From positions 3,038,001 through 3,102,000 of the forward strand of contig NZ_CP053085.1 in NCBI RefSeq assembly GCF_013004105.1: a stretch of 64,000 nucleotides of DNA, written 5' to 3'. The position numbers were made by a program, and so were the translations under genes. This stretch comes from Gemmatimonas groenlandica (GTDB lineage Bacteria; Gemmatimonadota; Gemmatimonadetes; Gemmatimonadales; Gemmatimonadaceae). Below the pieces are notes generated by a model that did no database searches, was not told the origin of the DNA, and saw only the letters and a program-made list of their open reading frames with translations. Within the stretch, counting starts at the first letter, position 1; every line of letters begins with the position of its first letter. This document shows, in pieces, positions 19,356 to 23,654 of this stretch.

Positions 19356-20774
19356 TCACGCTGATACACCAATTGCGTTGGCTTCACGCGCCGCCGCCCG
19401 GTACTCGTCGAGTAACGTGGCGGCGGCGCGAATGCCGCCCAGATAGTTCTCGACACTGATCCACTCGTCGGGAGCGTGGGCGTTCTCTCCGGGCAGGCCG
19501 AAGCCCATGAGCAGCACGGGCGCACCAAGAATGCGTTCGAAGTCGCCGACCACGGGAATGCTGCCGCCTTCACCGGTGATCACGGGCGCCCGCCCGAACG
19601 CCGCTTCGAGTGCACGTTTCCCGGCCTCGATGATGGGTCCCTTGAGATCCGCCCGCCACGGGCGTCCGCCGTGCAGATTCTCGACGGTGACGGTCACGCC
19701 CGGCGGTGCGACACGTTCCACGTGCGCCTGCACCAGTGCCCCGATGACCGCTGGATCTTGATCAGGCACGAGCCGAAAGCTGACCTTCGCCATGGACACC
19801 GCGGGGAGCACCGTCTTGGCGCCTTCGCCCGTGTAGCCGCTCAGCATGCCGTTCACTTCGCACGTCGGGCGTGTCCACAACCGCTCGAGCGTGGTATATC
19901 CGGGTTCGCCACCGAGTGCCGTGACGCCGACTTCGTGCATGAGATGCTCATCGCTGAATGGCAGCTCGCGCATCTGCGCCAGCACGGCATCGGGGAACGG
20001 TCGCACGCTCTCGTAGAAGCCGGGAATCGCGATGCGCCCATCGGCGTCATGCATGGTGGCCAGGATGCGCGCGAGCGCCATAGCCGGATTCACCACGGCT
20101 CCGCCATACATGCCGGAGTGCAGATCCCCGTTGGCGCCCCGCACGTTGATCTCGAGATACGCCATCCCGCGCAGCGATGACAGGATGCTGGGAATACCCG
20201 GCGCGAACATGGTGGAGTCGGAGATCACGACGGCATCGCAAGCAAGCCGCGTTTTCTCGCGCTCGAGGAACTGCTCGAGGTTTTCGCTTCCGACTTCTTC
20301 CTCGCCTTCGGCGAGCACGATGACGTTGACGGGCAGCGTCCCGCGTACCGCGAGATGCGCCTCGAGTGCCTTGATGTGCAGGTACAACTGCCCTTTGTCG
20401 TCGACCGATCCCCGCGCGTAAATGCGGCCGTCGCGCACGGTGGGCTCGAACGCCGGCGACGTCCACAACTCGAGCGGCTCGGCGGGTTGCACGTCGTAAT
20501 GCCCGTACACGAGCAACGTGGGCGCGTCGGGGCCGGCCTTGCGCCACTCACCGACGACGATGGGATGTCCCGGTGTCGGCTCGATGGTCGCCGTAAATCC
20601 GATGCGCGTGAGCGCATCGGCTACGAACTGTGCCGCCTCGGCGCAGTCGGCCTTGTGCTCGCTGCGCGCACTGACGCTGGGAATACGCAGGAAGGCAAAC
20701 AGTTCGTCCTGCGCGCGCGCATCGTTGGCGCTGCACCAGGCGGCGAGATCGGCGGGAATCGTGGGAGCGTTCAT
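19356..20774 (-). CDS. M20/M28-type dipeptidase
   Basis: The 472-residue protein is a zinc di- or carboxypeptidase of the M20 family. The metal and catalytic motifs are in place: LLVYGHYDVQP (His ligand, about 90-100), ARGSVDDKGQ (bridging Asp, about 124-133), the catalytic Glu and ligand in LAEGEEEVGS (about 158-167), ISDS as a later ligand, and a C-terminal His near AHAPDEW. The dimerisation (lid) domain lies between about 205 and 350. It is cytoplasmic (no signal) and probably hydrolyses short peptides. The promoter and leader must lie within or before the tandem repeat array that begins 30 bp upstream of the ATG, an unusual arrangement. Confidence 0.9.
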   Translation of the reverse strand: MNAPTIPADLAAWCSANDARAQDELFAFLRIPSVSARSEHKADCAEAAQFVADALTRIGFTATIEPTPGHPIVVGEWRKAGPDAPTLLVYGHYDVQPAEPLELWTSPAFEPTVRDGRIYARGSVDDKGQLYLHIKALEAHLAVRGTLPVNVIVLAEGEEEVGSENLEQFLEREKTRLACDAVVISDSTMFAPGIPSILSSLRGMAYLEINVRGANGDLHSGMYGGAVVNPAMALARILATMHDADGRIAIPGFYESVRPFPDAVLAQMRELPFSDEHLMHEVGVTALGGEPGYTTLERLWTRPTCEVNGMLSGYTGEGAKTVLPAVSMAKVSFRLVPDQDPAVIGALVQAHVERVAPPGVTVTVENLHGGRPWRADLKGPIIEAGKRALEAAFGRAPVITGEGGSIPVVGDFERILGAPVLLMGFGLPGENAHAPDEWISVENYLGGIRAAATLLDEYRAAAREANAIGVSA

Positions 20775-20803: not shown

Positions 20804-21664
20804 GGATAACAGCGGAAACGAGCGGTTCCAGCTTGACACGGATACGAACGGATACGAACGGACACCTTGGATCTGCTCCGTGTGCGCGAGACGGGGCGGA
20901 GGAGACCGCGAGTACGTATGCTGATGTGAACAGCCTGCTTGATCGGTTGCTATCGGTTGCTATCGGTTCGTATCCGTGTCAGCCAGGAACCGCTGTTTCG
21001 GTTCGTATCCTGACAGTCAGGCTTGGATAACAGCGGAAACGAGCGGTTCCAGCTTGACACGGATACGAACGGATACGAACGGACACCTTGGATCTGCTCC
21101 GTGTGCGCGAGACGGGGCGGAGGAGACGGCGAGTACGTATGCTGATGTGAACGGCCTGCTTGATCGGTTGCCATCGGTTGCTATCGGTTCGTATCCGTGT
21201 CAGTCAGGAACCGCTGTTTCGGTTCGTATCCTGACAGTCAGGCTTGGATCACAGCGGAAACGAGCAGTTCCAGCTTGACACGGATACAAACTGATACGAA
21301 CGGACACCATGGATCTGCTCCGTGTGCGCGAGCCGCGGCGGAGCAGACCGCGAGTGCTTTTTCTGAATGTGAACAGCCTGCTTGATCGGTTGCTATCGGT
21401 TGCTATCGGTTCGTATCCGTGTCAGTCAGGAACGGCTGTCTCGGTTCGTATCCTGACAGTCAGGCTTGGATCACAGCGGAAACGAGCGGTTCCAGCTTGA
21501 CGCGGATAGGAACGGATACGAACGGACACCTTGGATCTGCTCCGTGTGCGCGAGCCGCGGCGGAGCAGACCGCGAGTACGTATGCTGATGTGAACAGCGT
21601 GCTTGATCGGTTGCTATCGGTTCGTATCCGTGTCAGTCAGGAACCGCTGTTTCGGTTCGTATCG
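20804..21664. repeat. Tandem array of 3.9 copies of a 221-bp unit, each an imperfect long inverted repeat
   Basis: Units begin at 20804, 21025, 21246 and 21468, each with GGAT(A/C)ACAGCGGAAACGA. The first two differ at only about four positions; unit 3 is most diverged; unit 4 has lost one TTGCTATCGG and stops early. Within a unit, the left part (about 20815-20861) holds CGGATACGAA twice, and the right part (about 20953-21000) is its near-complement, leaving a ~90-nt loop. Unit junctions carry CCTGAC-A-GTCAGG. Short open frames across the units repeat the unit and have no protein-like features. The array fills the 910-bp gap between crcB (21685) and the dipeptidase start (20774). There are no unique spacers, so it is not a CRISPR array. 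Confidence 0.9.
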
Positions 21665-21684: not shown

Positions 21685-22074
21685 CTACCGCGCGCCGCGA
21701 CCGACGCTGAGTCCCGCGAACGTAGCCAATATACCGGCAGTGACACTCACACCGATGTACAGCGCGGCACGCGCTGCCTTGCCCTGCTGCAACAGCATGA
21801 GCGTTTCGGCACTGAAGGTGGAGAAGGTCGTGAAGCCACCACAGATGCCGACCGTCAGCGCCACGCGCAGCACTGGGTTGTGATCGGGCGCGTCGAACAG
21901 GCGCGCGAACAGGCCGATGAGAAAACTCCCCGCCACGTTGATCACGAGCGTGGAGACCGGGAACCCAGTGCTTGCGCGTTGCAGCAGCACGCCGACGATG
22001 TAGCGTGCGACAGAACCAACGGCACCACCGCCAGCGACGGCGAGCAGCATCGGCATGGTCAACGCCGAATTCAT
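21685..22074 (-). CDS. crcB: Fluoride channel CrcB/FluC
   Basis: The 129-residue protein has the four membrane helices of a FluC channel and the family signature GICGGFTTFSTFSAE, whose Phe and Thr/Ser residues line the fluoride path. GGGAVGSVARY near the N-terminus and VINVAGSFLIGLF (with the conserved Asn) are also diagnostic. It exports fluoride as a dual-topology dimer in the inner membrane. The ATG at 22074 overlaps the stop of the glycosyltransferase gene (ATGA), fixing the start and implying coupling. No fluoride riboswitch was noticed upstream, consistent with its place inside an operon. Confidence 0.92.
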   Translation of the reverse strand: MNSALTMPMLLAVAGGGAVGSVARYIVGVLLQRASTGFPVSTLVINVAGSFLIGLFARLFDAPDHNPVLRVALTVGICGGFTTFSTFSAETLMLLQQGKAARAALYIGVSVTAGILATFAGLSVGRGAR

Positions 22075-23654
22075 TGACGCCTCGGCACGTCGCGCGCGAT
22101 GCGGTACAGCCAAATGCGCCGCTCGGTCACGACGCCGTCACCACGGCGCAGCGGAACCGTGACCCCACGCTGCGATTCTGCAAACCACGAGCCCACGACG
22201 CCCGCCAACGAATCGCCTTTGGCATCCGCGTCGAACGCGACCACGAGGCCGTCGCCGGGACGGATCTTGTCGTACGCGTTGGGCCAGATGTCGTACTGGT
22301 TGGTGCGACCGCCAAGGTTCAGGGCGAACACCGTGGGCTGATCGGCGAGGTGGAAGGCCAGCTCCGAGGCATCTTGATAGCGATCGGCGGCAACCCAGCG
22401 ATCGACTGTGCCCTCCAAAAAATCGCTCTGCCGACTGTGGTCGACGGCCGCGGCCAGCGTTTCCCATCCATGCGCTCGCGCGATCGGATCCTTGCGCGGC
22501 GGGATCGGCAGAATGGGGGTGGCCGCCTGCCACGCCACGATCGTCAGTAGAATGGCGGCGAAGGCCTGACCGCGATGCCACCACCGACCGTACGACCACG
22601 GTTTGTCAGTCGTGGCCAGGAGCATCATGGCACCCGGATAGATCATCGCCGGCCAATTCGCTTCTACCGATCGGCGCCACGCGCTGATCGCGAAGAATGC
22701 GAGCGGCGCCACCGAGATCACCGCCAACGCAAACCGGCGCGTCATCGGATCGGTGGGCGACACGTCGCGACGCATGCGCCAGCCGTCGCGCATCGCGAAC
22801 CAGACCGCCCCCGCCATCAACAGGAACAGGATCGGCGAAGCGAGGCCGATCTGTCCGCCCAACATCTCGAGCTCACGCGAGAGCGGATTGCCGCGCGCGC
22901 TCGGACTGAAGCCGTGGCCCAGCTGAAAGCGGAACGAGACCCAATTGTTGAAGGCGTTCCAGGCGACCACCGGCGCGAACAATCCCAGCGCGACGATCGA
23001 CGCGATCCACGGTCCCGGCTCGGCGAACCGTTTGCGGAGTGCGGGATGCAGTACGCAGGCGATCACCAACCCCATCGGCAGCAACACGGCCGTGTACTTC
23101 GCCACGAACGCGGCACCAAGGCCGACGCCGGCTATGGTCCACCAGCCGAGGCTGCGCCATGAGCGGAGTGGGGCGGCCAGTGCCCGCTCCACGCCGAGCA
23201 AGGCGAACATCGCGCTCGCGAACAGCACCGCATCGGGCGTGGCCAGCACGAGCCCCAGCGTCGCGATCGGAATGAGCGCCACCAGCATCGCGGCGCGCGT
23301 CGCCGCACGGAGTCCGCCCGGCCCCCGCCCCGCCAGCTGCCAGGCACAGACCACGGCTGCCAGATGCATCAGCAACGCGGCCATCGCGGGCCCGGCGCGG
23401 ACACCCATGGACGTGTTGCCGAAGAGGCGTGTGCCCGCGGCGATCAGGAGCGCGATGCCGGGCGGATGATCGAAGTAGCCCGCTTCGAGCTGACGCGACC
23501 ACTCCCAGTAGTACGTCTCGTCGGGCAGCAGCGGGACCAGCCCCGACAGGCCCGCGCGCAGCACAGCCGCGACGAGAATCCAGCTCGCGGCAGACGTCCA
23601 CGAGCCCGGAGGGGCGACGGGGGGCTTGGTGGCAAGGTCGACCGGTATCGTCAT
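22071..23654 (-). CDS. GT39/ArnT-like membrane glycosyltransferase
   Basis: The 527-residue protein has about eleven hydrophobic segments. Near the N-terminus it has LLPDETYYWEWSRQLEAGYFDHPPGIALLI, the acidic loop of the PMT/ArnT superfamily in which the DE pair coordinates metal and lipid-phosphate donor. These enzymes transfer a sugar from a polyprenyl-phosphate donor to lipid or protein on the outer face of the inner membrane; the acceptor is unknown. The C-terminal ~120 residues form a soluble domain. The ATG at 23654 is preferred; the upstream ATG at 23678 would overlap the divergent gene. Only 22 bp separate it from the divergent start at 23677. Confidence 0.83.
   Translation of the reverse strand: MTIPVDLATKPPVAPPGSWTSAASWILVAAVLRAGLSGLVPLLPDETYYWEWSRQLEAGYFDHPPGIALLIAAGTRLFGNTSMGVRAGPAMAALLMHLAAVVCAWQLAGRGPGGLRAATRAAMLVALIPIATLGLVLATPDAVLFASAMFALLGVERALAAPLRSWRSLGWWTIAGVGLGAAFVAKYTAVLLPMGLVIACVLHPALRKRFAEPGPWIASIVALGLFAPVVAWNAFNNWVSFRFQLGHGFSPSARGNPLSRELEMLGGQIGLASPILFLLMAGAVWFAMRDGWRMRRDVSPTDPMTRRFALAVISVAPLAFFAISAWRRSVEANWPAMIYPGAMMLLATTDKPWSYGRWWHRGQAFAAILLTIVAWQAATPILPIPPRKDPIARAHGWETLAAAVDHSRQSDFLEGTVDRWVAADRYQDASELAFHLADQPTVFALNLGGRTNQYDIWPNAYDKIRPGDGLVVAFDADAKGDSLAGVVGSWFAESQRGVTVPLRRGDGVVTERRIWLYRIARDVPRRQ

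Follow-up and report, generated by a model that had tools for sequence, protein, structure and literature searches.

Two-armed palindromic DNA elements cluster around the replication origin of Gemmatimonas groenlandica

Palindromic repeats in bacteria are usually seen as genome-wide selfish debris. ERIC/IRU, NEMIS/Correia, and other bacterial MITEs are gene-less, imperfect palindromes of roughly 100 to 250 bp that lie in intergenic regions. Other repeated sequences, such as the parS sites of ParB and the matS sites, are bound by proteins and define a chromosomal domain. REPINs can form clusters in which near-identical copies stand in tandem together with flanking sequence, the largest holding four copies over 700 bp (PMC3116915). 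The ram sites recognized by RacA in Bacillus subtilis are centromere-like (PMC6593407).

We analyzed a stretch of 64,000 nucleotides of the G. groenlandica chromosome (C1:3038001-3102000, referred to as the window; the genome is one contig of 5,179,092 bases). Tandem Repeats Finder (TRF) reported one array, at 20804-21663, with a period of 221, 3.9 copies, and 93% matches; with the unit check, the whole four-unit array, to which no strand is assigned, spans 20804 to 21664. An earlier note had described four units starting at 20804, 21025, 21246, and 21468, the first two nearly identical. Both statements were correct: the unit lengths are 221, 221, 222, and 197, and exactly 4 positions distinguish unit 1 from unit 2 over the 221-bp period. 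The core of each unit is an element of 197 to 209 bp with two inverted arms of about 60 bp. A profile search with the family arm model placed all four elements on the plus strand, and the unit check covered units 2 and 4. Unit 1, of the left-arm class, lies at 20804 to 21010 (arms 20804-20864 on the plus and 20951-21010 on the minus strand), unit 2 at 21025 to 21231 (arms 21025-21085 and 21173-21231), unit 3 at 21246 to 21453 (arms 21246-21306 and 21394-21453), and unit 4 at 21468 to 21664 (arms 21468-21528 and 21606-21664). Copies 1 to 3 are each followed by a 14-bp linker, TGACAGTCAGGCTT (21011-21024, 21232-21245, and 21454-21467), whereas unit 4 lacks the linker and one 10-bp motif. Together with the CC just before it, the linker forms the palindrome CCTGACAGTCAGG, which is present at all three unit junctions (21009, 21230, and 21452), as previously noticed, and nowhere else in the window. 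A run of decamers (ACGGATACGA, period 10, with a free NN inside GATANNAAC) was recognized in the arm at 20838 to 20862 on the plus strand from TRF, column conservation, and motif density. The predicted fold of one unit was far more stable than dinucleotide shuffles on both strands (z of -6.3 and -6.9), which, with the inverted arms, bears out the long imperfect hairpin proposed before.

Two minus-strand open reading frames (ORFs) flank the array. One encodes an M20 peptidase (19356 to 20774; Pfam PF01546) and starts 29 bp from the array; the other is crcB, of the fluoride channel family (21685 to 22113; Pfam PF02537), with 20 bp between its stop codon and the array. The earlier note had reasoned that the leader or promoter of the peptidase gene must lie in the array. 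This is only partly justified: the two same-strand genes are about 45 to 110 bp apart in relatives without the element, and no sigma-70-like promoter was found in the array.

The same arms were found elsewhere in the genome. A profile search identified 33 paired-arm elements of 190 to 294 bp at 22 loci, and all 33 carry the two inverted arms of about 60 bp; such terminal inverted repeats are a MITE feature. The elements are dispersed, have unrelated flanks, occur in both orientations, and sit in intergenic spacers, commonly 5 to 40 bp after a stop codon. They resemble ERIC/IRU and NEMIS/Correia MITEs as gene-less, intergenic, imperfect palindromes of similar size, and REP/REPIN elements in layout, in that two inverted arms form a hairpin. 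The arms differ from those of REPINs in their length of about 60 bp and in being built of 10-bp motifs. Tandem copies exist at six of the 22 loci, and, as in REPIN clusters (PMC3116915), the near-identical copies carry flanking sequence: the linker is repeated in the window, and the units at L044 and L046 repeat bases of the right flank. The window array is, by this analogy, a REPIN-cluster-like tandem duplication. With a home-made gene caller, convergent gene pairs were over-represented at the loci (10 of 22, versus 24 of 181 background intergenes; p = 7e-4), whereas adjacency to a stop codon (20 of 22) was not above background (p = 0.26). The neighbouring genes are unrelated, with no shared function. 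We also noticed a solo remnant at 3.376 Mb (L213). The 294-bp family element at L040:3885-4178 has in its core an intrinsic-terminator-like hairpin (GGCAACGGC...GCCGTTGCC, followed by a T-rich stretch). At L031:493-3825 there is a single 1110-aa frame, the start of which matches nitronate monooxygenase and the rest penicillin amidase, and its stop codon lies inside an inserted element.

Extending the search to related genomes, a check that the earlier note had proposed, revealed the family in a few congeners. One other species, G011, carries dozens of arms arranged in arrays, and six of its draft contigs (L131, L132, L137, L202, L204, and L205) end inside such arrays, so its copy number is probably underestimated. 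Between one and five matches, or remnants, turned up in a few other congeners; the majority lack the family, indicating that it is dispensable. None of 395 sampled genomes of the phylum outside the genus matched; the core pattern had two matches in named records, both Gemmatimonadetes MAGs, and no match pointed to a phage or plasmid origin. Several element sites are empty in relatives. At two sites, copies of different species follow the same stop codon at equal distance (34 and 34 bp; 28 and 29 bp). Where the window array stands, G024 carries a single unit, degenerate remains are left in G025, G017, and G014, and G027 and G020 are empty. These data show that the unit is a member of an old family of palindromic DNA elements with two arms, scattered over many loci, and that the four copies in this species arose by tandem amplification of a single ancestral element at this locus. 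A purely local duplication, of no broader significance, describes the tandem step, for which the four copies here and the single unit of G024 speak; as an account of the unit it is refuted by the 33 elements at 22 loci and by the family in congeners, and we give it practically no weight.

We then placed the loci on the chromosome. The dnaA gene lies at 3,688,209-3,688,691, with dnaN, yidC, and mnmE around it and an rpmH-like frame readable in the sequence, and the strand-controlled GC skew changes sign there, from mostly negative on the left to positive on the right. Twenty-one of the 22 loci fall between -630 and +656 kb of dnaA, 10 to the left and 11 to the right. For a radius of 660 kb, which was chosen after seeing the data, the binomial p was 6e-12, and 6e-8 after neighbours were merged (14 of 15). 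None of 100,000 random placements put 21 of 22 loci into an arc of that width (maximum, 17), and only 0.7% of random centres would capture 21 of the observed loci. The orientation of the elements (A to B) relative to the origin is mixed, with no polarity. The one intact element found far away (G000:C1:1748820) is 1.94 Mb from the origin. A second DnaA-like gene (G000:C1:1714214-1715791) lies 33 kb from it. Origin-centring was measured directly in this one complete chromosome, and positions in G011 were inferred by synteny: the coding flanks of its arrays map to 3.15-4.30 Mb of the present genome in 15 of 16 hits, the other hit being weak, and some arrays stand at the same loci as here, e.g., at 3.435, 3.722, 3.835, 4.138, and 4.290 Mb. 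An apparent exception is the L205 element, which adjoins a gene with a probable orthologue at 2.74 Mb. Two loci of G025, as well as remnants in G017 and G028, are at or beside loci that carry elements here.

Positions around dnaA would also be expected of sites of a known origin-proximal system, either DnaA boxes titrating DnaA or parS sites of ParB, and the sole outlier lies near the DnaA-like gene at 1.715 Mb. We consider this very improbable, since none of the 33 elements contains a TTWTNCACA box and none contains a TGTTTCACGTGAAACA-like parS palindrome. No parS-like site with up to 2 mismatches was found in the 877 kb sampled of this genome, including 37 kb around dnaA. In a complete congener, parS-like sites are present near the presumed origin, at G021:C1:38040 and 38374.

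The family comprises two subfamilies, of about 200 bp and about 237 bp, which occupy mainly the left and the right chromosome arm, respectively. Elements from +99 to +602 kb are 236 to 239 bp long and share a common core, while lengths of 190 to 210 bp predominate in the group formed by the left-side elements and those at +32 and +656 kb; the elements at -364 and +89 kb have atypical lengths. The association of subfamily with chromosome arm was significant in this genome with the two atypical-length elements left out (p = 2e-4), and it held in other species with one exception each way (p = 0.07). By FastTree local supports, the split between the subfamilies received 0.87 to 0.89, and same-locus copies of different species paired at the three loci tested (0.88 to 0.95). 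There was no isolation by distance; arm identity did not fall with distance (Mantel p = 0.37). Together, these results show that the family is concentrated within about 0.66 Mb around the origin, in intergenic spacers, with separate subfamilies on each side. REPINs differ in this respect, as the present copies are confined to the origin domain and form two arm-specific subfamilies.

If the hairpin were what counts, arms should agree more closely with their own partners than with others. This was not the case: own-partner identity was 0.778, compared with 0.784 for shuffled partners (p = 0.86), indicating no selection for pairing. The compensatory changes in the stem that the earlier note had suggested looking for did not exceed chance, and RNAalifold covariation terms for the two subfamilies (+1.2 and -0.17 kcal/mol) gave no gain in either. 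The refuting condition set in the earlier note thus came out divided, as the unit does occur elsewhere in the genome. A structured RNA, or a 3'-end element whose transcript hairpin stabilizes, processes, or terminates mRNA, is thus unsupported, since the arms do not covary. The very stable predicted fold, the enrichment of convergent pairs, and the adjacency to stop codons, the last at background level, speak for it, whereas Rfam yielded no match above threshold, with only plant miRNA noise below it, and no terminator, T-tract or other, was found in the array. It also leaves the origin-centring unexplained. We regard this reading, the structured-RNA part of which was an option of the earlier note, as improbable.

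The constraint lies in the sequence itself. Each arm consists of consecutive motifs of approximately 10 bp (NGATANNAAC), in which some positions are fixed and others free: 41 columns are conserved at 85% or more and 11 at less than 65%, and in both arms independently the variable columns are the NN of GATANNAAC and the base before GATA. The density of GATANNAAC is 21.6 per kb in elements versus 0.037 in the background, and the commonest spacing is 10; isolated motifs outside elements showed no enrichment near the origin. Between species, same-locus orthologues at four loci were identical at 291 of 320 fixed positions (91%) and at 36 of 87 free ones (41%) (p = 3e-21; fixed columns were defined from copies in this genome). 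At the L042 locus, 23 of 34 positions were identical in the spacer between stop codon and element, 107 of 124 in the arms, and 94 of 113 in the core, compared with 128 of 149 in the adjoining coding sequence; arms and core thus match the coding sequence in conservation, approximately, and exceed the spacer. Because the free columns show that there was time enough to randomize unconstrained positions, selection in place is the simplest explanation for the constancy of the fixed columns. We conclude that the elements are kept under sequence constraint and not base-pairing constraint.

These observations agree with a long-established group of sequence-specific sites around the origin. Our best reading, to which we assign a probability of about 0.43, is that the arms are recognized by a protein with a role at the origin domain. 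The 10-bp motifs, the fixed and free pattern on one helix face, and the two inverted arrays would make each element a multi-site binding platform for a putative sequence-specific DNA-binding protein. Given the origin-centred placement, such a protein would act on the origin domain and might position, compact, or segregate the DNA near the origin, by analogy with RacA at ram sites or ParB at parS. Tandem copies would raise the number of sites locally. Among the three possibilities of the earlier note, the multi-site regulatory array, in the sense of protein sites, fits best. That old copies are under selection where they stand favours a host role; that most congeners have no family members or only remnants speaks against an essential one. 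The element 1.94 Mb away, the L205 element of G011, and the missing orientation polarity also count against protein-recognized sites, as do other long-palindrome families in the genome, at least one of them not origin-bound, which point to a general repeat-making process.

The main rival is a non-autonomous mobile element of the MITE/REPIN kind, which we consider a serious possibility, if short of even odds. The arms would then be ends recognized by a transposase. Copies would spread mainly to sites close by, or else within the origin domain, where the two arms of the chromosome run alongside each other; they would come to rest in spacers at gene ends, where they do no harm, and occasionally be duplicated in tandem. 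The scatter of copies, in both orientations and amid unrelated flanking sequence, the sites empty in relatives, and the presence of several other palindrome families agree with this, the excess of convergent intergenes is as expected of a preference for harmless sites, and tandem clusters are known for REPINs (PMC3116915). The self-amplifying satellite of the earlier note suits the tandem step and stays a rival explanation of the family. Against mobility, the Y1 (RAYT) transposase PF01797 is absent from both element-rich genomes (G000, the present one, and G011), which rules out an association with RAYT and sets the elements apart from REPIN-RAYT systems; PF01797 was found in 8 of 30 congeners, including some element-poor ones. 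No target-site duplication was seen by eye in the flanks, where relatives are too diverged to offer a close empty site. Tip-pattern and arm searches of the own genome, which could miss diverged ends, found no long copy in which arms flank a gene. Furthermore, arm identity does not drop with distance, and the conservation of resident copies in place is limited to the fixed columns, unlike what neutral dead copies would show. The origin-centring and this fixed-column constraint also distinguish the family from ERIC/IRU and NEMIS/Correia elements, as may the lack of a visible target-site duplication.

In their concentration around the origin, which in a second species rests on synteny, the elements are like the ram sites of RacA. 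They are unlike them in that ram is a short motif also present elsewhere on the chromosome, whereas here we have two-armed arrays of about 200 bp, and no RacA-like protein is known. Likewise, they share with parS and matS the marking of a chromosomal domain by repeated candidate protein sites, but their sequence is different and much longer, and they are absent from most congeners. Among the papers listed in literature searches, matches to the motifs were unrelated and primer-like, and for Gemmatimonas repeats no paper stood out. Tentatively, and with the odds against it, we suggest a hitherto undescribed site system of the origin domain, present in some Gemmatimonas-like bacteria and made of two-armed arrays of about 200 bp with 10-bp candidate protein sites, in left and right versions that would be read by a putative chromosome-organizing protein. 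A family held to the origin-proximal quarter, with side-specific subfamilies and constrained at shared loci, contrasts with the view of palindromic repeats as debris. It would represent either a new chromosome-organizing system in a phylum that has received little study or a clear case of a mobile element whose dispersal is guided by how the chromosome folds.

Further palindromes were observed in the sampled sequences (positions are 0-based for the first family). A different long-palindrome family (AACAGCCAGAACACGGAGACCAC...ACACAGATAAGC) occurs at L217:2858, L217:8352, L218:587, L214:14214, L224:4097, and L224:6910; these six copies are all about 0.70 Mb or less from the origin, one of them 4 kb from dnaA. 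Another (AACTGCCAAC.GCTTAGG..AGCAGGGAGGAGGGTGTCAGGGAGGAGG; L226:2641, L222:16583, L233:3182, and L233:9704) has copies both near and far from the origin. Two more families are represented by CGCGAAGGGC (L226 and L227) and GGCGCTAAGAGT (L224). Finally, shorter hairpins of a similar 10-bp motif (CACGGATGAA) are present in other taxa, at L163:480-600 (a Rhodospirillales MAG) and L212 (near 1500), which suggests a wider class.
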